A stretch of DNA of 64,000 nucleotides, from contig NC_087078.1 in assembly GCF_026151205.1 (NCBI RefSeq), positions 8,448,675 to 8,512,674 of the forward strand, in the 5' to 3' direction. This document shows, piece by piece, positions 1 through 63,107 of the stretch. The notes under the pieces were generated by a model. That model made no database searches and had not been told where the DNA came from. It saw nothing but the letters and a program-made list of their open reading frames with translations. This DNA is from Bolinopsis microptera (taxonomy: Eukaryota > Ctenophora > Tentaculata > Lobata > Bolinopsidae). Position 1 is the first letter of the stretch; every line of letters begins with the position of its first letter. Position numbers and translations under genes: made by a program.

Positions 1-1359
1 ATTCTAGATTGAATAAGCTCTTTAAAAAAGTAGCAAGGTGGACGATAACAACTGGGCACGTAGAATGGCCAATGACTTGGAGGAAGCTGCTAGAAAAGGT
101 CAGCAACGTGAGGTATGGCAGAAGATCAATGTCATATCTGGAAAGAAGAAGAAGCAGTCAACTGCAGTTAGAGACGTATCTGGCCAGTTGATTGCCGACC
201 CACATGCCCAGAAAGAAAGGTGGAAAGAGCACTTCTCTAGGCTATTGAACCCTCCCCCGCAAGAGGCCAATATTTCTGACCTAGACAACATCCCTCCGCA
301 ACCCAGTTTTGACGACCTTTCCGATTCGGATGAAGCTCCTACAAGAAACGAGATTGTTGATGCCCTCAAAAAACTCAAGAATCACAAAAGTCCAGGAGTG
401 GATGGTATCACCAACGAGCAACTTAAGTATGGACAGGATGGGTTGGTCGATCAACTAGTTGTGTTGTTCAAGAAAGTGTGGGAAGATGAGAAGATTCCTG
501 AGGATTGGTCCAAAGGTGTTATTATCATCGTTGGAAAGAAAGGTGACACCTCTCATTGCGCTAACAACAGAGGCATTACATTAAGATCCACAGCCTCGAA
601 GCTCCTGCAGATGATACTCCTGCGGAGACTTAGCAATGGAATGGAAAAATTCCTTCGGGAGAATCAAAGTGGTTTTAGACAGAATCGCTCATGTATTGAC
701 CAGGTTTATTCACTCCGCTGTATTATTCACCAATGCATTGAGTATAATATCCCTCTGTATATTAATTTTGTTGATTTCAAAGCAGCTTTTGATTCAATTG
801 ACAGGCAGTTCATTTGGAGAAGTATGCAGCACTACGGCTTACCTGACAAGTACATTAGAATTATGAAGGCGTTCTTCACTCACACAGTTAGTGCTGTTAG
901 GGTCAATGGTGAGGTCACAGGTTGGTTTGATGTCAACTCGGGTACTGGGCAAGGTGATATACAGGGACCACCAGTCTTCAACTTTTGTTTGAATTTTTCG
1001 GCATACCTTATGGAACTGAACAAGGTCATTAGCAAAGGGGCTTTATTACAGCTGCCAGCCCCCGGGGTAGAAGAAAAACATCTTTTGGACACTGATTACG
1101 CTGATGACATGGCCATGTTAGATAACTCAAAAGAGGGGCTGCAGGAAACCACTGACCTTCTCTGCAAATACAGTGCCTATGCAGGTCTGAAGATTAATGC
1201 TGGCAAAACACAGAGCATGGTTGTCAGCAAAAGTGCATCGCAGAGGCCGTATTCTAAAGACGACACTATGGACATCAATGTGGAAGGTCTCCCAATACAG
1301 CAGGTCAGCAATTTCACTTACTTGGGTGCAATCATCAGTGCGAATGGAACAATTGACAA
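1..1359 (+). pseudogene. LINE reverse transcriptase, 5' part (interrupted)
   Basis: The frame is open from about position 26 to 1369 and the window starts inside the element, so the endonuclease end is not visible. RT blocks appear in order: PGVDGITNEQLK near residue 121, the RT2-RT3 region with FVDFKAAFDSIDR near 245, GTGQGDIQGPP near 305 and the catalytic TDYADDMAML near 355. This is a non-LTR retrotransposon polymerase, which copies its own RNA into nicked chromosomal DNA. The frame stops because a 240-bp satellite array is inserted at GTIDN. The protein resumes on the far side of the array at 6938, so the two pieces are one broken gene. The family is an endonuclease-RT LINE common in marine invertebrates (established knowledge); the exact clade was not determined. 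Confidence 0.9.
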
Positions 1360-4300
1360 TCTAATCTAAGTAAACTATAGGTAAAAATATAATATTAATC
1401 ATAAGCTAAAATGTACTAATCTTTGTATTCTAAATGGGGAAAAAGAGGGCGCCCAAGAAAACAAAGATCAACCAAATCTCGGAACCAATGGCCGGGAGAG
1501 ATATACATGTAATTATAGAGCAATATCAAGAAAAGCTATCAATTATGTATCCAACGGGGCGGAAGAACCGACCACCAGTACTTGATACCATGATACGGAC
1601 GTAATCTAAGTAAACTATAGGTAAAAATATAATATTAATCATAAGCTAAAATGTACTAATCTTTGTATTCTAAATGGGGAAAAAGAGGGCGCCCAAGAAA
1701 ACAAAGATCAACCAAATCTCGGAACCAATGGCCGGGAGAGATATAAATGTAATTATAGAGCAATATCAAGAAAAGCTATCAATTATGTATCCAACGGGGC
1801 GGAAGAACCAACCACCAGTACTTGATACCATGATACGGACGTAATCTAAGTAAACTATAGGTAAAAATATAATATTAATCATAAGCTAAAATGTACTAAT
1901 CTTTGTATTCTAAATGGGGAAAAAGAGGGCGCCCAAGAAAACAAAGATCAACCAAATCTCGGAACCAATGGCCGGGAGAGATATAAATGTAATTATAGAG
2001 CAATATCAAGAAAAGCTATCAATTATGTATCCAACGGGGCGGAAGAACCGACCACCAGTACTTGATACCATGATACGGACGTAATCTAAGTAAACTATAG
2101 GTAAAAATATAATATTAATCATAAGCTAAAATGCACTAATCTTTGTATTCTAAATGGGGAAAAAGAGGGCGCCCAAGAAAACAAAGATCAACCAAATCTC
2201 GGAACCAATGGCCGGGAGAGATATAAATGTAATTATAGAGCAATATCAAGAAAAGCTATCAATTATGTATCCAACGGGGCGGAAGAACCGACCACCAGTA
2301 CTTGATACCATGATACGGACGTAATCTAAGTAAACTATAGGTAAAAATATAATATTAATCATAAGCTAAAATGTACTAATCTTTGTATTCTAAATGGGGA
2401 AAAAGAGGGCGCCCAAGAAAACAAAGATCAACCAAATCTCGGAACCAATGGCCGGGAGAGATATAAATGTAATTATAGAGCAATATCAAGAAAAGCTATC
2501 AATTATGTATCCAACGGGGCGGAAGAACCGACCACCAGTACTTGATACCATGATACGGACGTAATCTAAGTAAACTATAGGTAAAAATATAATATTAATC
2601 ATAAGCTAAAATGTACTAATCTTTGTATTCTAAATGGGGAAAAAGAGGGCGCCCAAGAAAACAAAGATCAACCAAATCTCGGAACCAATGGCCGGGAGAG
2701 ATATAAATGTAATTATAGAGCAATATCAAGAAAAGCTATCAATTATGTATCCAACGGGGCGGAAGAACCGACCACCAGTACTTGATACCATGATACGGAC
2801 GTAATCTAAGTAAACTATAGGTAAAAATATAATATTAATCATAAGCTAAAATGCACTAATCTTTGTATTCTAAATGGGGAAAAAGAGGGCGCCCAAGAAA
2901 ACAAAGATCAACCAAATCTCGGAACCAATGGCCGGGAGAGATATAAATGTAATTATAGAGCAATATCAAGAAAAGCTATCAATTATGTATCCAACGGGGC
3001 GGAAGAACCGACCACCAGTACTTGATACCATGATACGGACGTAATCTAAGTAAACTATAGGTAAAAATATAATATTAATCATAAGCTAAAATGTACTAAT
3101 CTTTGTATTCTAAATGGGGAAAAAGAGGGCGCCCAAGAAAACAAAGATCAACCAAATCTCGGAACCAATGGCCGGGAGAGATATAAATGTAATTATAGAG
3201 CAATATCAAGAAAAGCTATCAATTATGTATCCAACGGGGCGGAAGAACCGACCACCAGTACTTGATACCATGATACGGACGTAATCTAAGTAAACTATAG
3301 GTAAAAATATAATATTAATCATAAGCTAAAATGTACTAATCTTTGTATTCTAAATGGGGAAAAAGAGGGCGCCCAAGAAAACAAAGATCAACCAAATCTC
3401 GGAACCAATGGCCGGGAGAGATATAAATGTAATTATAGAGCAATATCAAGAAAAGCTATCAATTATGTATCCAACGGGGCGGAAGAACCGACCACCAGTA
3501 CTTGATACCATGATACGGACGTAATCTAAGTAAACTATAGGTAAAAATATAATATTAATCATAAGCTAAAATGCACTAATCTTTGTATTCTAAATGGGGA
3601 AAAAGAGGGCGCCCAAGAAAACAAAGATCAACCAAATCTCGGAACCAATGGCCGGGAGAGATATAAATGTAATTATAGAGCAATATCAAGAAAAGCTATC
3701 AATTATGTATCCAACGGGGCGGAAGAACCGACCACCAGTACTTGATACCATGATACGGACGTAATCTAAGTAAACTATAGGTAAAAATATAATATTAATC
3801 ATAAGCTAAAATGTACTAATCTTTGTATTCTAAATGGGGAAAAAGAGGGCGCCCAAGAAAACAAAGATCAACCAAATCTCGGAACCAATGGCCGGGAGAG
3901 ATATAAATGTAATTATAGAGCAATATCAAGAAAAGCTATCAATTATGTATCCAACGGGGCGGAAGAACCGACCACCAGTACTTGATACCATGATACGGAC
4001 GTAATCTAAGTAAACTATAGGTAAAAATATAATATTAATCATAAGCTAAAATGTACTAATCTTTGTATTCTAAATGGGGAAAAAGAGGGCGCCCAAGAAA
4101 ACAAAGATCAACCAAATCTCGGAACCAATGGCCGGGAGAGATATAAATGTAATTATAGAGCAATATCAAGAAAAGCTATCAATTATGTATCCAACGGGGC
4201 GGAAGAACCGACCACCAGTACTTGATACCATGATACGGACGTAATCTAAGTAAACTATAGGTAAAAATATAATATTAATCATAAGCTAAAATGCACTAAT

Positions 4301-6937
4301 CTTTGTATTCTAAATGGGGAAAAAGAGGGCGCCCAAGAAAACAAAGATCAACCAAATCTCGGAACCAATGGCCGGGAGAGATATAAATGTAATTATAGAG
4401 CAATATCAAGAAAAGCTATCAATTATGTATCCAACGGGGCGGAAGAACCGACCACCAGTACTTGATACCATGATACGGACGTAATCTAAGTAAACTATAG
4501 GTAAAAATATAATATTAATCATAAGCTAAAATGTACTAATCTTTGTATTCTAAATGGGGAAAAAGAGGGCGCCCAAGAAAACAAAGATCAACCAAATCTC
4601 GGAACCAATGGTCGGGAGAGATATAAATGTAATTATAGAGCAATATCAAGAAAAGCTATCAATTATGTATCCAACGGGGCGGAAGAACCGACCACCAGTA
4701 CTTGATACCATGATACGGACGTAATCTAAGTAAACTATAGGTAAAAATATAATATTAATCATAAGCTAAAATGTACTAATCTTTGTATTCTAAATGGGGA
4801 AAAAGAGGGCGCCCAAGAAAACAAAGATCAACCAAATCTCGGAACCAATGGCCGGGAGAGATATAAATGTAATTATAGAGCAATATCAAGAAAAGCTATC
4901 AATTATGTATCCAACGGGGCGGAAGAACCGACCACCAGTACTTGATACCATGATACGGACGTAATCTAAGTAAACTATAGGTAAAAATATAATATTAATC
5001 ATAAGCTAAAATGCACTAATCTTTGTATTCTAAATGGGGAAAAAGAGGGCGCCCAAGAAAACAAAGATCAACCAAATCTCGGAACCAATGGCCGGGAGAG
5101 ATATAAATGTAATTATAGAGCAATATCAAGAAAAGCTATCAATTATGTATCCAACGGGGCGGAAGAACCGACCACCAGTACTTGATACCATGATACGGAC
5201 GTAATCTAAGTAAACTATAGGTAAAAATATAATATTAATCATAAGCTAAAATGTACTAATCTTTGTATTCTAAATGGGGAAAAAGAGGGCGCCCAAGAAA
5301 ACAAAGATCAACCAAATCTCGGAACCAATGGCCGGGAGAGATATAAATGTAATTATAGAGCAATATCAAGAAAAGCTATCAATTATGTATCCAACGGGGC
5401 GGAAGAACCGACCACCAGTACTTGATACCATGATACGGACGTAATCTAAGTAAACTATAGGTAAAAATATAATATTAATCATAAGCTAAAATGTACTAAT
5501 CTTTGTATTCTAAATGGGGAAAAAGAGGGCGCCCAAGAAAACAAAGATCAACCAAATCTCGGAACCAATGGCCGGGAGAGATATAAATGTAATTATAGAG
5601 CAATATCAAGAAAAGCTATCAATTATGTATCCAACGGGGCGGAAGAACCGACCACCAGTACTTGATACCATGATACGGACGTAATCTAAGTAAACTATAG
5701 GTAAAAATATAATATTAATCATAAGCTAAAATGTACTAATCTTTGTATTCTAAATGGGGAAAAAGAGGGCGCCCAAGAAAACAAAGATCAACCAAATCTC
5801 GGAACCAATGGCCGGGAGAGATATAAATGTAATTATAGAGCAATATCAAGAAAAGCTATCAATTATGTATCCAACGGGGCGGAAGAACCGACCACCAGTA
5901 CTTGATACCATGATACGGACGTAATCTAAGTAAACTATAGGTAAAAATATAATATTAATCATAAGCTAAAATGCACTAATCTTTGTATTCTAAATGGGGA
6001 AAAAGAGGGCGCCCAAGAAAACAAAGATCAACCAAATCTCGGAACCAATGGCCGGGAGAGATATAAATGTAATTATAGAGCAATATCAAGAAAAGCTATC
6101 AATTATGTATCCAACGGGGCGGAAGAACCGACCACCAGTACTTGATACCATGATACGGACGTAATCTAAGTAAACTATAGGTAAAAATATAATATTAATC
6201 ATAAGCTAAAATGTACTAATCTTTGTATTCTAAATGGGGAAAAAGAGGGCGCCCAAGAAAACAAAGATCAACCAAATCTCGGAACCAATGGCCGGGAGAG
6301 ATATAAATGTAATTATAGAGCAATATCAAGAAAAGCTATCAATTATGTATCCAACGGGGCGGAAGAACCGACCACCAGTACTTGATACCATGATACGGAC
6401 GTAATCTAAGTAAACTATAGGTAAAAATATAATATTAATCATAAGCTAAAATGTACTAATCTTTGTATTCTAAATGGGGAAAAAGAGGGCGCCCAAGAAA
6501 ACAAAGATCAACCAAATCTCGGAACCAATGGCCGGGAGAGATATAAATGTAATTATAGAGCAATATCAAGAAAAGCTATCAATTATGTATCCAACGGGGC
6601 GGAAGAACCGACCACCAGTACTTGATACCATGATACGGACGTAATCTAAGTAAACTATAGGTAAAAATATAATATTAATCATAAGCTAAAATGTACTAAT
6701 CTTTGTATTCTAAATGGGGAAAAAGAGGGCGCCCAAGAAAACAAAGATCAACCAAATCTCGGAACCAATGGCCGGGAGAGATATAAATGTAATTATAGAG
6801 CAATATCAAGAAAAGCTATCAATTATGTATCCAACGGGGCGGAAGAACCGACCACCAGTACTTGATACCATGATACGGACGTAATCTAAGTAAACTATAG
6901 GTAAAAATATAATATTAATCATAAGCTAAAATGTACT
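1360..6937 (+). repeat. 240-bp satellite array (about 23.2 units) inserted in a LINE
   Basis: An exact 240-bp period runs for 5578 bp. Monomers are almost identical; I saw only about four kinds of single-base variant. The array begins TCTAATCTAAG and ends AATGTACT, so a 58-bp segment occurs 24 times and the other 182 bp 23 times, giving the array direct 58-bp ends. ACAA lies on both sides (1356-1359 and 6938-6941), and joining the flanks at one ACAA restores the LINE reading frame, so this looks like an insertion with a 4-bp target duplication. A T/C variant at the ATGTACTAAT site occurs every third unit over much of the array, which is a 720-bp higher-order period. Each full monomer carries a 56-codon ORF (separate entry). 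Confidence 0.97.
1434..1604 (+). CDS. 56-codon ORF repeated in every 240-bp satellite monomer
   Basis: I do not recognise this ORF. It starts at ATGGGGAAAAAGAGG and ends at TAA, and recurs at 1434+240k for k=0 to 22 (last copy 6714-6884). The peptide begins MGKKRAPKKTK, is strongly basic at its N-terminus, has a central helix-like stretch around IIEQYQEKL and a second basic patch GRKNRPP. All variants I noticed inside it keep the frame: His25 in unit 1 against Asn in the rest, Arg to Gln in the GRKNRPP patch of unit 2, and Ala to Val in one unit near 4610. An in-frame TAA lies directly before the ATG. Homogenisation of the array alone could keep the frame open, so coding is a hypothesis. It is too short to assign to a family by eye. 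Confidence 0.3.
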   Translation: MGKKRAPKKTKINQISEPMAGRDIHVIIEQYQEKLSIMYPTGRKNRPPVLDTMIRT

Positions 6938-7515
6938 ACAAAGAACTGTCAGCTCGAATTCAAAAGGCCTCTGGGGCATTCTATCAGCTCAGCAGTATAT
7001 GGTACAGTCGCAACATCAAAACTCCAACTAAAATCAGGATTTACAAAGCGGCTGTTCTCACTATACTGCTTTATTGAAGTGAGGTATGGAATACCACACA
7101 GACGCAGATGAAAAGATTTGAGGTGTTCCATGATAGATGTCTGAGGAGAATCCTGAAAATAAAATGGTTTTATCATGTATCTAATGCTGATGTACTTAAG
7201 CGGGCTAACATCGCCCCTGTTGATACTTTCGTACGAGCAGCTAGACTCCGATGGTTTGGCCATGTGGTGAGGATGCCAGAAGAAAGAATACCCAACTATC
7301 TACTGCACTGGATCCCAAAGCATGGTAAAAGGTCAAGAGGTAGACCTCGGAAAAACTGGTTGTCATGTGTCCGGGAGGATGCAGCAATCTTCACAGGTGT
7401 CGATAACATCACGATAGAAGATGCAGAACAACAAGCTACAGACAGGGTTCACTGGAGAGGTCTAATACACCGGAGAAAGGAGTTACTATGTGGTGCAGGC
7501 CACTCCAACGACTAG
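6938..7515 (+). pseudogene. LINE reverse transcriptase, C-terminal part
   Basis: This continues the protein of the LINE at 1-1359. After the satellite it resumes with KELSARIQKASGAFYQL, has one TGA stop at about 7076 (in LLY*SEVWN, where a sense codon is expected), then stays open to 7515. It contains the C-terminal LINE signatures RRILKIKW, RLRWFGHVVRMPEE and a basic RSRGRPRKNW segment. Joined across the array the whole frame carries a single nonsense codon, so the copy decayed little before or after the satellite inserted. A 3' fragment of a related copy lies on the minus strand at 17971-18013. Confidence 0.88.
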
Positions 7516-11053: not shown

Positions 11054-13473
11054 CATATGAGCAATTTCTCCTTGAGGAAGAAGTAGGATAACAGCACTGT
11101 GAAGATAGGAGCAGTGGTCAGGAGAAGAGTGGCTTCACCTGCAGTAGTTTATTTAGGGGTACATATTACGTAATCAGCTTAGGGGGGAGGGGGTACATAT
11201 AACGTAATCAGCCGAGGGGGGGGGGGGGGGGGAGGGTCGCTTCACATGCAGTTGTTTATTTAGGGGTACATATTATTATTACGTAATCAGCCGAAGGGGG
11301 AGGGGGTACATATTACGAAATCAGCCGAGGGGGAGGGGGGGGGGGGTTCCCGAATGATCACGCTAGTGTAATTTTGACACAATAGCTATGTGTAAAACTA
11401 ATTCCAAAAAGTGATATTATGTGAACGACCCCTCAATAAATTTACCTGCTCAGTCTAGTCCAGTATAATTTTAATAGTTTATCTTTTTAATCGATATTAT
11501 TAGTTTTAAACTTATGGCAACACTAAAATCTATTAAATTTATAGAGTTTTATTATTTTATTAAAACTCATTTTTGGGTACTGGTAGAGTGGACTGCTGCC
11601 AGTGTCTCTCTTTCCAAAATTAAAGGAAATGATATCAATTTGAATAAATTTTGATATTTCAAAATGGGACAGAAATTTGAAAATAGTACTAGTTGTAAGC
11701 TTCCTCCGACCGGAATGAAACTTCCAGCACCTCAATTGTGTCCTATGCCACTTCATAATAGTTGACCGACTAATATTATAATTGGTCACCGGAAGAGAAA
11801 TTCGGTCAAAACTGTGAAATTTCGGTTCTAGAAATTTCATCTTCAAAAACTGAAAATGGAACTGAGAATGGGAAAATTAAATAATTTGTTTCACCTCTAA
11901 ATGAAAAGCTTTGATATAGTGATTGGTTGTTAAAACAAGCATACCAATTGGTAAATGTCGTAGAGCAAAGACAGTGGACATAGCAGTAAATGTACCAAGT
12001 AAGGCTGTTAGGAATATCATGTTGGTTTTGGGATACTCCATAGGGTTCTGGTATCTGAAATAATAATTACTACTAATAATTTCTACTAATTAGTTTTGAT
12101 GATAGTTTATTAAAACTGTAAAAGGTTTAAACATTAAAGATTGTAAGTTTAGGTTGAATCTTACCCTTTGTAGAAATTGATTAGAGACGTCAGAGCAAGT
12201 GTAAAGAAGAATCGCCACCACAAAATCTCTATTATTGGTAAACCGCTGATCAAATCTGAATGATAAATGAGCATTTAGCAAAGCTAGTTAGAAAATATAC
12301 ATTGCTGATCACGATTAATTTACAGTACGTCCACTGGTCAGCTGCGTTATTCTTACCACCTGACTTGATACACAACAAATTGACACAACGAATGGACCAA
12401 TCTGGGTGAATAGTCAAGTTTTTGCAAAGTACGTGATACTTGTACCCTGTACCCTGTACCCTGTACCCTGTACCCTGTACCCTGTACCCTGTACCCTGTA
12501 CCCTGTACCCTGTACCCTGTACCCTGTACCCTGTACCCTGTACCCTGTACCCTGTACCCTGTACCCTGTACCCTGTACCCTGTACCCTGTACCCTGTACC
12601 CTGTACCCTGTACCCTGTACCCTGTACCCTGTACCCTGTACCCTGTACCCTGTACCCTGTACCCTGTACCCTGTACCCTGTACCCTGTACCCTGTACCCT
12701 GTACCCTGTACCCTGTACCCTGTACCCTGTACCCTGTACCCTGTACCCTGTACCCTGTACCCTGTACCCTGTACCCTGTACCCTGTACCCTGTACCCTGT
12801 ACCCTGTACCCTGTACCCTGTACCCTGTACCCTGTACCCTGTACCCTGTACCCTGTACCCTGTACCCTGTACCCTGTACCCTGTACCCTGTACCCTGTAC
12901 CCTGTACCCTGTACCCTGTACCCTGTACCCTGTACCCTGTACCCTGTACCCTGTACCCTGTACCCTGTACCCTGTACCCTGTACCCTGTACCCTGTACCC
13001 TGTACCCTGTACCCTGTACCCTGTACCCTGTACCCTGTACCCTGTACCCTGTACCCTGTACCCTGTACCCTGTACCCTGTACCCTGTACCCTGTACCCTG
13101 TACCCTGTACCCTGTACCCTGTACCCTGTACCCTGTACCCTGTAGTGGGGCACTGACCTGTGAACAAGGAGCAGATAGCGAAGAAAAAGCAAGATAACAC
13201 AGTATAACCGTACACTTTAGTTTCGTCAGAAACTCCGTTCACAGCTTCTGTAACCTTTCTGTTTAGCCTGATGGTGGAACCATTTCATTAATGATATAGA
13301 ATTAATCACCTAATCAATATTTTTGAAATAGTAAGAAAATATCAATATCTGCTTATTACCCTGAAATTTGGAACCAATAGTTCACTATTTCTACCACGAA
13401 TAGAATTTCAGTCAACTTACCACGACTGCTCGATGTAGAGGTACAAGTTTTGGACTAAATCTTTTACGCCCAT
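11054..13473 (-). CDS. EamA/SLC35G-like membrane transporter, five 5' exons (3' end not found)
   Basis: Exons on the minus strand, in order: 13482-13421, 13267-13158, 12255-12165, 12054-11945, 11138-11054. Every junction has GT..AG and every phase fits (62, 110, 91, 110 and 85 nt). The first ATG in the first exon is at 13473, giving MGVKDLVQNLYLYIEQSW. The product has one hydrophobic helix per exon: YGYTVLSCFFFAICSLFT, then ISGLPIIEILWWRFFFTLAL, then NMIFLTALLGTFTAMSTVFA followed by LRHLPIG, then EATLLLTTAPIFTVLLSYFF with KEKLLIW. The order (LSGLP-IEILWWRF, ALRHLPIG-EAT, P-IFTVLLSYFFLKEK) is typical of the first EamA half of drug/metabolite transporters such as SLC35G. The second half was not found downstream; the next exons may be further away or lost. 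Intron 2 contains the 7-bp array and intron 4 holds G-rich repeats. Confidence 0.75.
11150..11350. repeat. G-rich tandem segment with decoy splice acceptor, in an intron
   Basis: The segment TTTAGGGGTACATATTACG plus G-runs repeats several times, with an uninterrupted G17 at 11216-11232 and another long G run near 11340. At 11236-11262 it also duplicates the start of the preceding exon and its acceptor (GCTTCACATGCAGTTGTTTA against the true GCTTCACCTGCAGTAGTTTA at 11132). The runs could form G-quadruplexes. Confidence 0.7.
11565..11880. repeat. Diverged copy of the 38.5/43.3 kb element terminus
   Basis: GTAGAGTGGACTGCTGCCAG and the following TGTCTCTCTTTCC match the termini of the palindromic elements at 38521-39032 and 43283-43770, with drift further in. 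It lies inside intron 4 of the minus-strand transporter. Frames here carry no recognisable protein. Confidence 0.55.
12442..13144. repeat. 7-bp tandem array (TACAGGG/CCCTGTA)n, about 100 copies
   Basis: CCCTGTA repeats essentially without error for 703 bp. Because 7 is not a multiple of 3 and the word contains no stop in any phase, all six frames are open; the long frames on both strands (Val-Pro-Cys-Thr-Leu-Tyr-Pro or Arg-Val-Gln-Gly-Thr-Gly-Tyr repeats) are artefacts. The array lies in intron 2 of the minus-strand transporter and starts only about 14 bp past the 5' donor of the exon ending at 13158. The word is one step from telomeric TTAGGG-like repeats but is not the TTAGGG seen elsewhere in the window. 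Confidence 0.97.
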
Positions 13474-51913: not shown

Positions 51914-54900
51914 TTACTCCAGTAGCAGGGAGGAGTTGAGTGTGCACTTCGATGTATAGAGTTTTTTGCTGCTGAATCGGGTTAAATAGGTCATTGGTAA
52001 CTCAAAAAATCGAGGGCCGCATGTTGTGTCGCTAGTCCCAACCCTGTGGAGCCACGCCCATATTTCATATCAGGTGCGTATATGGGAAATATGTATCTCA
52101 GCTTCTGAAGGTCTTAGAGACTCAAAATTGACTTTAAAATGACCGCAATGCACATGTTTATATTGGTACTATGAAGGTCATGAAAGCCCAAAATGCTTAT
52201 TTTTGGAAAAAAATCAGAAAAACCAATCGTCACTTGGGCGCGAGTAAAAAATCGACTCTTAGAAATTGAGTGAAAATCGAGTAAGCAGTTCAGTGTCTAC
52301 AACATTTCTAAACACAGGGTCCTCTGTTAGGTCATTCTAAATCAGAATTGATAAAGTAATCAAATTCTATTAGTAGTTTCAACCCTGTGGAGCCACGCCC
52401 ATATTTCATATTATGTGCGAATATGGGAAATTTGTATCTCAGCTTCTGAAGGTCTTAGAGACTCAAAGGTGGGCTTAAAATGACCGTAATGTACATGTTT
52501 ATATTGGCACTATAAGGGTCATGAAGGCCCAGAATGCTTATTTTTTGGAAAAATTCAGTAAAACCGATTTTCACTTGGGCGTGAGTAAAAATCGACTCTT
52601 AGAAGTTAAGTGAAATCGAGTATGAAGTTCAGTGTCTGCAACGTTTCTAAACACAGGATCCTTTGTAAGGTCATTCTGAATCAGAATTGATAAGGTACGC
52701 AAATTCTATTAGTAGTTTTAACCCTAGGGTGCAAAACTCCTAAATTACCACCAGGCGCAAATATATAATGACTTTTCTATCTCGGCTTCTGAAGTTCTGA
52801 ACGTTGTAGGGGCCTCTCTTTGAGCTCAAACTAACTGCGATGGCCACATTTATATACTCTATAGTGCTTAGTTTTTAAAAACTCATTAAAAACTGTTTTA
52901 ACCTTCATGCATCATAAAGTAGTAACATCAAACATGTACTTAATCATGGTATCTCGGGCTAAAAAAGTTTTATAGACATTTGCAGCACAGGAAAACGTTC
53001 AACATAAACACATTCGGATAACATTTATGGAGCAGCACATACCACCTAACTTTAATTTTGGTATAACTGCGAAAATACTCAGTTTCAGAAGCTCCTTCCA
53101 GCTATCTTAGGCTGCCTTCAGCTCCCTCTCTGGGGCTCTCTTCAGTACTGCTTGGCTATTATGGCTAATCAACTTGAATCCAACCTCATGTAGCAGAATC
53201 TACTTCTATAGCTACCTTCTGCTAACTCCATGTCAACTCTACCCAGCTACCACCACCAGTACGTTATAATTTTAGATCTTTCTAGCAACCTCTGATATGA
53301 GTGCTATCTTTTCCTTTATCCAGCTACTATACCACCAGATGGCAGAAACCACAAATTCCAGCTGTTTTCACCTACTTCGGCTACCTCTATTTAGCTACCA
53401 CCAAGGTTCCTCCAACTTCTGCTATTTCTAGCAACCTTAGCTTAAGCTATTGGGCTACGTCTTGCCCTGTCTAGCAACCATCAGCAACATTTTATTCTGG
53501 TGTTTAGAGGTTGCTAGAAACAGCAAATTTCCTCTTCCTTAATGAGCTGGAAATTGTTGGATGCAGCAAAGATAGTACTCATATCAGAGGTTGCTAGAAA
53601 GATCTAAAATTACAACGTACTGGTGGTGGTAGGCGGTACCTGGGTAGAGTTGACATGGAGTTAGCAGAAGGTAGCTATAGAAGTAGATTCTGCTACATGA
53701 GGTTGGATTCAAGTTGATTAGCCATAATAGCCAAGCAGTACTGAAGAGAGCCCCAGAGAGGGAGCTGAAGGCAGCCTAAGATAGCTGGAAGGAGCTTCTG
53801 AAACTGAGTATTTTCGCAGTTATACCAAAATTAAAGTTAGGTGGTATGTGCTGCTCCATAAATGTTATCCGAATGTGTTTATGTTGAACGTTTTCCTGTG
53901 CTGCAAATGTCTATAAAACTTTTTTAGCCCGAGATACCATGATTAAGTACATGTTTGATGTTACTACTTTATGATGCATGAAGGTTAAAACAGTTTTTAA
54001 TGAGTTTTTAAAAACTAAGCACTATAGAGTATAATAGACCCTACGGTTCTTTACAGTTGGTATATAAATGTGGCCATCGTAGTTAGTTTGAGCTCAAAGA
54101 GAGGCCCCTACAACATTCAGAACTTCAGAAGCCGAGATAGAAAAGTCATTATATATATTTGCGCTTGGTGGTAATTTAGGAGTTTTGCACCCTAGGGTTA
54201 AAACTACTAATAGAATTTGCATACCTTATCAATTCTGATTCAGAATGATCTTACAAAGGATCCTGTGTTTAGAAACGTTGCAGACACTGAACTTCATACT
54301 CGATTTCACTTAACTTCTAAGAGTCGATTTTTACTCACGCCCAAGTGAAAATCGGTTTTACTGAATTTTTCCAAAAAATAAGCATTCTGGGCCTTCATGA
54401 CCCTTATAGTGCCAATATAAACATGTACATTACGGTCATTTTAAGCCCACTTTTGAGTCTCTAAGACCTTCAGAAGCTGAGATACAAATTTCCCATATTC
54501 GCACATAATATGAAATATGGGCGTGGCTCCACAGGGTTGAAACTACTAATAGAATTTGATTACTTTATCAATTCTGATTTAGAATGACCTAACAGAGGAC
54601 CCTGTGTTTAGAAATGTTGTAGACAGTGAACTGCTTACTCGATTTTCACTCAATTTCTAAGAGTCGATTTTTTACTCACGCCCAAGTGAAAATTGGTTTT
54701 TTTGATTTTTTCCCAAAAATAAGCATTTTGGGCCTTCATGACCTTCATAGTACCAATATAAATATGTGCATTGCGGTCATTTTAAAGTCAATTTTGAGTC
54801 TCTAAGACCTTCAGAAGCTGAGATACATATTTCCCATATACGCACCTGATATGAAATATGGGCGTGGCTCCACAGGGTTGGGACTAGCGACACAACATGC

Positions 54901-62509: not shown

Positions 62510-63107
62510 TTGGTAGATCACCGACCGGCTATAAGCCGGTTATAAGCCGGCTATAAACCGGCTTATAGCCGGCTACAATTTTTATAGCCGGCTATAAGCC
62601 GGCTTATAGCCGGTTAGTAGCCGCTTACATTTGTTGTTGAGCGACGGCTATTAGCCGGTTATAAGCCGGCTATTAGCCGTTTAGGTATCGAAAGTGGTTA
62701 TAAGCCGGCTATAAGCCGGCTATAAGATATTAACTTAACTTCATCGTACTGAACTGAGTTAATATCTTATAACCGGCTTATAACCACTTTCGATACCTAA
62801 ACGGCTAATAGCCGGCTTATAACCGGCTAATAGCCGTTTTCACTGAATTTCTTATAGCCGGCTCCTGACTATCGTTCAGTACGATGTAGTTGAGTTAATA
62901 TCTTATAACCGGCTTATAACCACTTTTAATACCAAAACGGCTAATAGCAGGCTTATAACCGGCTAATAGCCGTCGCTCAACAACAAATGTAAGCGGCTAC
63001 TAACCGGCTATAAGCCGGCTTATAGCCGGCTATAAAAATTGTAGCCGGCTATAAGCCGGCTTATAGCCGGTTAGTAGCCGGCTTATAGCCGGTCGGTGAT
63101 CTACCAA
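62510..63107. repeat. 598-bp palindrome of an 11-bp word (CCGGCTATAAG)
   Basis: TTGGTAGATCACCGACCGGC at the left is the complement of the right end. Both arms are runs of CCGGCTATAAG, CCGGCTTATAG and near variants. A few other words (TTTAGGTATCGAAAGTGG, CATTTGTTGTTGAGCGACGG) are mirrored in both arms. Beyond the perfect part, GGGAAA/TTTGGCCC-like ends and CAACTTTA on both sides (62496-62503 and 63114-63121) suggest an inserted element with a 7-8 bp duplication. No coding frame. Confidence 0.88.

Follow-up and report, generated by a model that had tools for sequence, protein, structure and literature searches.

A 240-bp tandem array in the ctenophore Bolinopsis microptera as a probable internally deleted derivative of a Penelope-like element

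Introduction

The permuted Penelope-like elements (PLEs) of the Naiad/Chlamys clade were defined by Craig et al. in 2021, a study that is said to have reported no canonical hammerhead ribozyme in the clade. In the canonical Penelope/Poseidon PLEs a type I hammerhead lies in the pseudo-LTR (LTR, long terminal repeat) (PMC11167929, PMC7761336), where its role has been described as unknown (PMC7761336). Insertion as tandems and partial tandems is a known trait of PLEs (PMC11167929, PMC3846280), an example being Pen2_Av of Adineta vaga, a Penelope partial tandem lying inside a non-LTR retrotransposon (PMC3846280), and the animal retrozymes of Acropora form arrays of 220–240-bp units that range from dimers to 62-mers (PMC7229834). 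Here we describe a tandem array of 240-bp units in a 64,000-nucleotide stretch of the ctenophore Bolinopsis microptera, referred to below as the window (C7:8448675-8512674, i.e. NC_087078.1, of the 264.65-Mb assembly against which all genome searches were run). Our reading, to which we give a probability of about 0.9, is that the array is made of an internally deleted, non-autonomous form of a young PLE of permuted domain order, that it is inserted in a long interspersed nuclear element (LINE), and that the 56-codon open reading frame (ORF) carried by each unit is incidental.

The locus resembles each of these systems in part. Like the Naiad/Chlamys PLEs, the parent elements identified here have a predicted GIY-YIG nuclease followed by a putative reverse transcriptase (RT), a CxC linker (CDC and CNC) and nuclease residues of the CCHH type, together with pseudo-LTRs and partial tandem insertions; unlike them, the window array is a derivative without the element's ORF, and the parents carry a candidate ribozyme of the twister-P5 type. 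With canonical Penelope/Poseidon elements the PLEs here share tandem and partial-tandem insertion, a fixed 3′ tail and a sense-strand self-cleaving ribozyme motif (here a candidate) in the pseudo-LTR, but their nuclease is N-terminal rather than C-terminal and the candidate is a twister rather than a hammerhead. The array is a non-autonomous, single-site multimer of low GC content, as are the animal non-LTR retrozymes with their 150–450-bp tandem units (PMC7229834); unlike retrozymes, which carry a type I hammerhead in each tandem unit, the 240-bp unit gave no match to a hammerhead or other ribozyme in scans of the window and of an array copy, derives directly from a parent that is known and occupies one locus only. 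Finally, as with Pen2_Av, a PLE tandem lies in a LINE-type element and was recognized via a related uninterrupted copy, but Pen2_Av comprises two copies (one full-length and one 5′-truncated) and the window array comprises 23 short deleted units.

Results

The array and the deletion that made its unit

An earlier note on this DNA had claimed a 240-bp repeat, and this is borne out by Tandem Repeats Finder (TRF), which gave a period of 240, 23.2 head-to-tail copies and 99% matches at 1362–6938. The minus strand of the window corresponds to the RT sense of the parent PLE, so that the 3′ end of the element lies at 1362 and the element is truncated on its 5′ side at 6938; the assignment of the array to an internally deleted PLE is based on TRF, comparison with the parent and the 3′ termini. 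Searching the genome with the 240-bp unit returned the window array, a noisy array on C10 and dispersed PLE sites at which the last 73 bases of the unit lie about 3.67 kb upstream of unit bases 9–240. The parent is a 3,830-bp element (family A) that has direct repeats (pseudo-LTRs) 3,827–3,831 bp apart and holds the two parts of the unit at its ends.

The unit consists of the 5′ 160 bp and the 3′ 85 bp of the parent joined at a 2-bp microhomology (GA), 3,590 of the 3,830 bp having been removed and with them the whole of the PLE ORF. In unit 1 the deletion junction lies at 1445–1446, and it is the same in every unit. By comparison with the parent, the segment at 1362–1446 (minus strand, 72 nt + 13 nt) comes from the parental 3′ end and is the source of the ATG of the 56-codon ORF, while the segment at 1445–1604 (minus strand), identical in most full-length copies, comes from the parental 5′ region and is the source of the ORF body; on one side of the junction the match between parent and unit extends over 13 bases counted from the ATG, and on the other side it begins again 2 bases ahead of GGGCGCCC. 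The units are joined to each other by the parent's own head-to-tail joint. Splicing was considered as the origin of the junction and rejected, as the donor side lacks a GT and the 2-bp microhomology is found instead. Exact matches to the junction GGGGAAAAAGAGGGCGCCC number 23 in the window array, and elsewhere in the genome related places are found only in the C10 copy; the junction formed once. The deletion would have joined an ATG-bearing piece of the PLE 3′ end to the 5′ region, giving both the 240-bp unit and an antisense frame.

A satellite family would be expected to occupy many long arrays or loci genome-wide, and the junction is confined to the window locus and its noisy duplicate. The array is thus a single-locus array and there is no genome-wide satellite family, so that the suggestion of a satellite-like replicon holds in that the unit derives from a retroelement but fails for want of a satellite family. 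A second short-unit tandem of the same parent was found on C5 (L013 834–1314, C5:14115833-14116313), where an independent 140-bp unit, formed of parental bases 3740–3830 joined to 1–49, is repeated about 2.4 times head to tail. It keeps no ORF comparable with that of the 240-bp unit (the longest has 21 codons); short-unit tandems of the parent PLE therefore recur without any ORF being kept. A small element whose ends are inverted (GGGACAAAAGGATTTCGCG...) lies within the C5 tandem and interrupts it.

The parent element

The parent has one long frame, to which the 56-codon ORF is antisense, with an N-terminal GIY-YIG domain, a CxC linker and the RT motifs GIPMG and YVDD. A second PLE, family B (L076, C3:4626-4630 kb), has the same domain order and a protein 26% identical to that of family A over its length (global alignment) and 24% in the local match. 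Pfam GIY-YIG was matched above its curated cut-off by residues 70–116 of the family A protein (E = 1.2e-5) and residues 71–125 of the family B protein (E = 2.7e-6), the GIPMG and YxDD motifs follow downstream, and the nuclease is thus N-terminal to the putative RT within a single ORF. The linker reads CDC in one and CNC in the other, in the same column of the A/B protein alignment (read by eye). Both families also show the pseudo-LTRs and partial tandem insertion typical of PLEs (the repeat spacing in family A, and in family B pseudo-LTRs of 558 bp that are 99.8% identical). Matches to the parental RT were found in at least 60 copies at 89% identity or more; as most of these are 97–99% identical and many have an open frame of 924 aa, the family is taken to be young. 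Judged on these predicted features, the parent is a young PLE with permuted domain order (GIY-YIG, CxC linker, then RT) of the Naiad type.

Insertion into a LINE

The array interrupts the RT ORF of a LINE, the 5′ part of which lies at 26–1369 on the plus strand (Pfam RVT_1, E = 2.7e-26; the frame enters the array by a few bases) and the 3′ part at 6942–7515 on the same strand, as identified by comparison with other copies of this LINE. At least 40 near-identical copies of the host LINE are present in the genome, and in 13 of 14 other copies the empty site (GACAAAG) reads GGAACAATTGACAAAGAACTG or a one-base variant of it. From the empty site and the tails of other insertions, the left boundary (1357–1361, plus strand) is made up of the target CAA (1357–1359) and a 2-nt tail, TC (one extra AGATT tail repeat, read in the RT sense), and from the empty site the right boundary (6939–6941, plus strand) is the second target copy CAA; given the letters shared between target and array, the target duplication is 1–3 bp. 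In the RT sense the array ends in ...TTTACTTAGATTAGATT just before the target, and this is the canonical 3′ terminus of the element, as more than 20 other PLE insertions stop at ...TTTACTTAGAT(T) or close variants. The opposite end of the array (6938) is an arbitrary truncation inside a unit. A fixed 3′ end combined with a variable 5′ end is the outcome of target-primed reverse transcription, and the PLE machinery would have reverse-transcribed the deleted monomer, or a short multimer of it, into the LINE from the RNA 3′ end as far as the 5′ truncation.

Growth of the array

The number of units might have risen to 23 as a multimeric or circular template was traversed repeatedly, or at a later time by unequal exchange involving three units at once; on either route the 56-codon ORF would have been copied along with the unit. 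We see about an even chance that the array expanded as DNA once it had been inserted, through replication slippage or unequal crossing-over and with no multimeric RNA step. A T>C substitution at unit position 221, outside the ORF, is found in units 3, 6, 9, 12, 15 and 19, a three-unit higher-order pattern whose first five occurrences suggest duplication by blocks of three and which favours exchange (or a trimeric template). The twin array on C10 has about 18 units as against 23, possibly an allelic difference in length, although that copy is too noisy for unit counts to be safe. On the other hand, the independent 140-bp tandem of the same PLE suggests that the element itself makes multimers, and so favours a process at the RNA level, and in PLEs partial tandems are nothing out of the ordinary (PMC11167929, PMC3846280). 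That the array was already multimeric when inserted, having been copied by rolling-circle reverse transcription from a small RNA, circular or tandem, as has been suggested for animal retrozymes, is possible but seems to us rather doubtful: the 240-bp unit, low GC content, multimeric state, short target duplication and exact 3′ terminus all resemble animal retrozyme loci, but the circles described for retrozymes are hammerhead-dependent (PMC7229834), no ribozyme was found in the unit by the scans mentioned above, and the parent's twister candidate (see below) lay within the deleted part and has been lost. Between unequal exchange and insertion of a multimeric RNA copy we lean slightly towards the former.

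The 56-codon frame

The ATG-to-TAA frame of 56 codons noted earlier (1434–1604 of the plus strand in unit 1, and at +240k thereafter) is indeed present in all 23 full units, and the unit variants that had been named were all found and are all missense: Asn25>His in unit 1 (unit position 73), Arg>Gln in unit 2 (137) and Ala>Val in unit 14 (59). It might be supposed that the frame codes for a basic microprotein of 56 residues, expressed from the many copies in tandem and kept by selection, since it is open in 23 of 23 units, the peptide is basic and the parent too has an open antisense frame in this region. We consider this very improbable. All units go back to one junction event and are nearly identical, so that the 23 frames count as a single observation. 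Across the array units and parental copies there are 10 distinct substitutions in the ORF (7 missense, 3 synonymous and 0 nonsense), a small sample that agrees with the proportions expected for this sequence under neutrality (missense 73%, synonymous 22%, nonsense 4%) and gives no sign of purifying selection. When the 240-mer is circularized, 18% of mononucleotide shuffles and 20% of first-order Markov sequences contain by chance, in one frame or another, an ORF 56 codons long or longer, and each unit in fact has another frame free of stops, 66 codons in length, that overlaps the first. The peptide has no Pfam match, no ORF was kept in the independent 140-bp derivative and the frame runs antisense to the gene of the element. 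The proposal of a selected microprotein is thus not supported by the substitutions, by the chance rate or by the 140-bp derivative, and of the three options put forward in the earlier note array homogenization is the only one that fits, the frame having arisen once by deletion and then been copied. On these sequence comparisons it is most likely an incidental antisense frame.

The earlier note had also proposed estimating dN/dS (the ratio of nonsynonymous to synonymous substitution rates) on diverged arrays. The apparent candidate at C10:155-159 kb has 18 copies with 88–92% identity to the unit. It belongs to a stretch near the chromosome start (C10:153000-166500; L011, L033) that is an indel-rich duplicate of the window from 1 to about 14,000, array included: the C10 copy stays collinear with the window across the LINE on either side of the array, has the same LINE insertion site, continues for at least 6.5 kb past the array (window ~14,000) and is 88–90% identical throughout with hundreds of small indels. 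It is probably a piece of the assembly that was left unpolished or was misplaced. That C10 holds a second, diverged array usable for dN/dS is hardly credible despite the unit divergence over 18 copies, as the same indel noise runs through the LINE, its insertion site and the flanks; the copy is read as a low-quality duplicate of the window locus, and the dN/dS comparison was ruled out.

A candidate twister ribozyme in the parent PLEs

An Rfam scan of the full-length parent gave a type-P5 twister match of 28.8 bits, in the RT sense, about 170 nt from the 3′ end of the element and within the repeated part. Further matches from a genome search were likewise sub-threshold, family B scoring 26.8 bits and the best 34.3 bits against a gathering threshold of 37.6. 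A twister-P3 match of 29.6 bits at 62529–62609 of the window lies in a palindromic tandem repeat and was rejected as a chance match, and scores near 29 bits therefore prove nothing by themselves. As the bit scores are insufficient, the case for a twister rests on covariation, position and pattern count. The candidates lie in the pseudo-LTRs of the permuted PLEs in the RT sense (L009 1217–1274, minus strand; L015 4358–4415, plus strand; L076 2774–2818 and 6089–6133, plus strand), those in L076, family B, occupying both pseudo-LTRs. Between the 3′ regions of families A and B no stretch is better conserved than the twister (36 nt, E = 0.010). When the putative pairs of families A, B and C are set side by side, the core nucleotides, P2, P4 and two pseudoknots are kept through compensatory change: the P2 pairs are GGUG/CACC, CGC/GCG and UGC/GCA, the outer P4 pair is U-A/U-G as against G-C, and the pseudoknots, at proposed positions taken from the twister fold, are CGxCG versus GGxCC (T1) and GCxGC versus GGxCC (T2). 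One subfamily has a U-U mismatch at the outer P2 pair. A genome search with the twister core pattern gave 398 exact matches, and one with its reversed control 0. Of the insertion 5′ ends that were read, two (L015 and L049) lie within a few nucleotides of the predicted cleavage site (U^AA), and others do not.

The intact parent thus appears, from motif and covariation, to carry a candidate twister where its known relatives carry a hammerhead. Full-text literature searches returned no paper describing a twister in PLEs; truncated twisters in RTE elements have been mentioned as in preparation (PMC7761336).

Other repeats were seen in the window. The palindromic CCGGCTATAAG-type repeats extend over 62525–63092 and are matched by chance by Rfam models, twister-P3 included; about 100 perfect copies of the heptamer TGTACCC occupy 12441–13144; and at 54194–54880 a 341-bp unit is present in two tandem copies that are 89% alike.

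Discussion

Several points weigh against the interpretation of the array as a deleted PLE derivative with an incidental ORF. The RT assignment of family A rests on the motifs and on 26% identity to family B; an RT profile was matched in family B only, and weakly (E = 3.9e-5), a Pfam search found no RT domain in the protein of either family, and a search of PDB sequences with the PLE protein gave no relevant match, RT included. The predicted structure of the PLE protein had a mean pLDDT (predicted local distance difference test) of 33 and was unusable. As regards the ORF, the parent also has an antisense frame here, of about 60 codons and with its own, different ATG, and a test on ten substitutions has little power for weak selection.

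The array is ordinary in kind and instructive in anatomy, and it is the twister candidate in the parent that is the lead worth following. It is conceivable, though on present sequence comparisons we regard it as unlikely, that permuted ctenophore PLEs carry functional type-P5 twisters in the role of the hammerhead, and that deletions removing the twister lead to tandem arrays because multimeric RNA is left uncut; that loss of the twister helps multimers to persist is speculation.

Two cautions follow for work of this sort: conserved ORFs in homogenized arrays should not be read as genes, and noisy duplicate contigs should not be used as diverged copies. For the genome, the array shows a possible start of a satellite-like block, in which one deletion in a retroelement that copies itself head to tail yields a short unit, here present as 23 short units at one locus before any spread. 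For the PLEs, if the candidates cleave, these elements would have employed ribozymes of two unrelated classes at an identical position, and this would suggest that it is self-cleavage itself that their life cycle needs.

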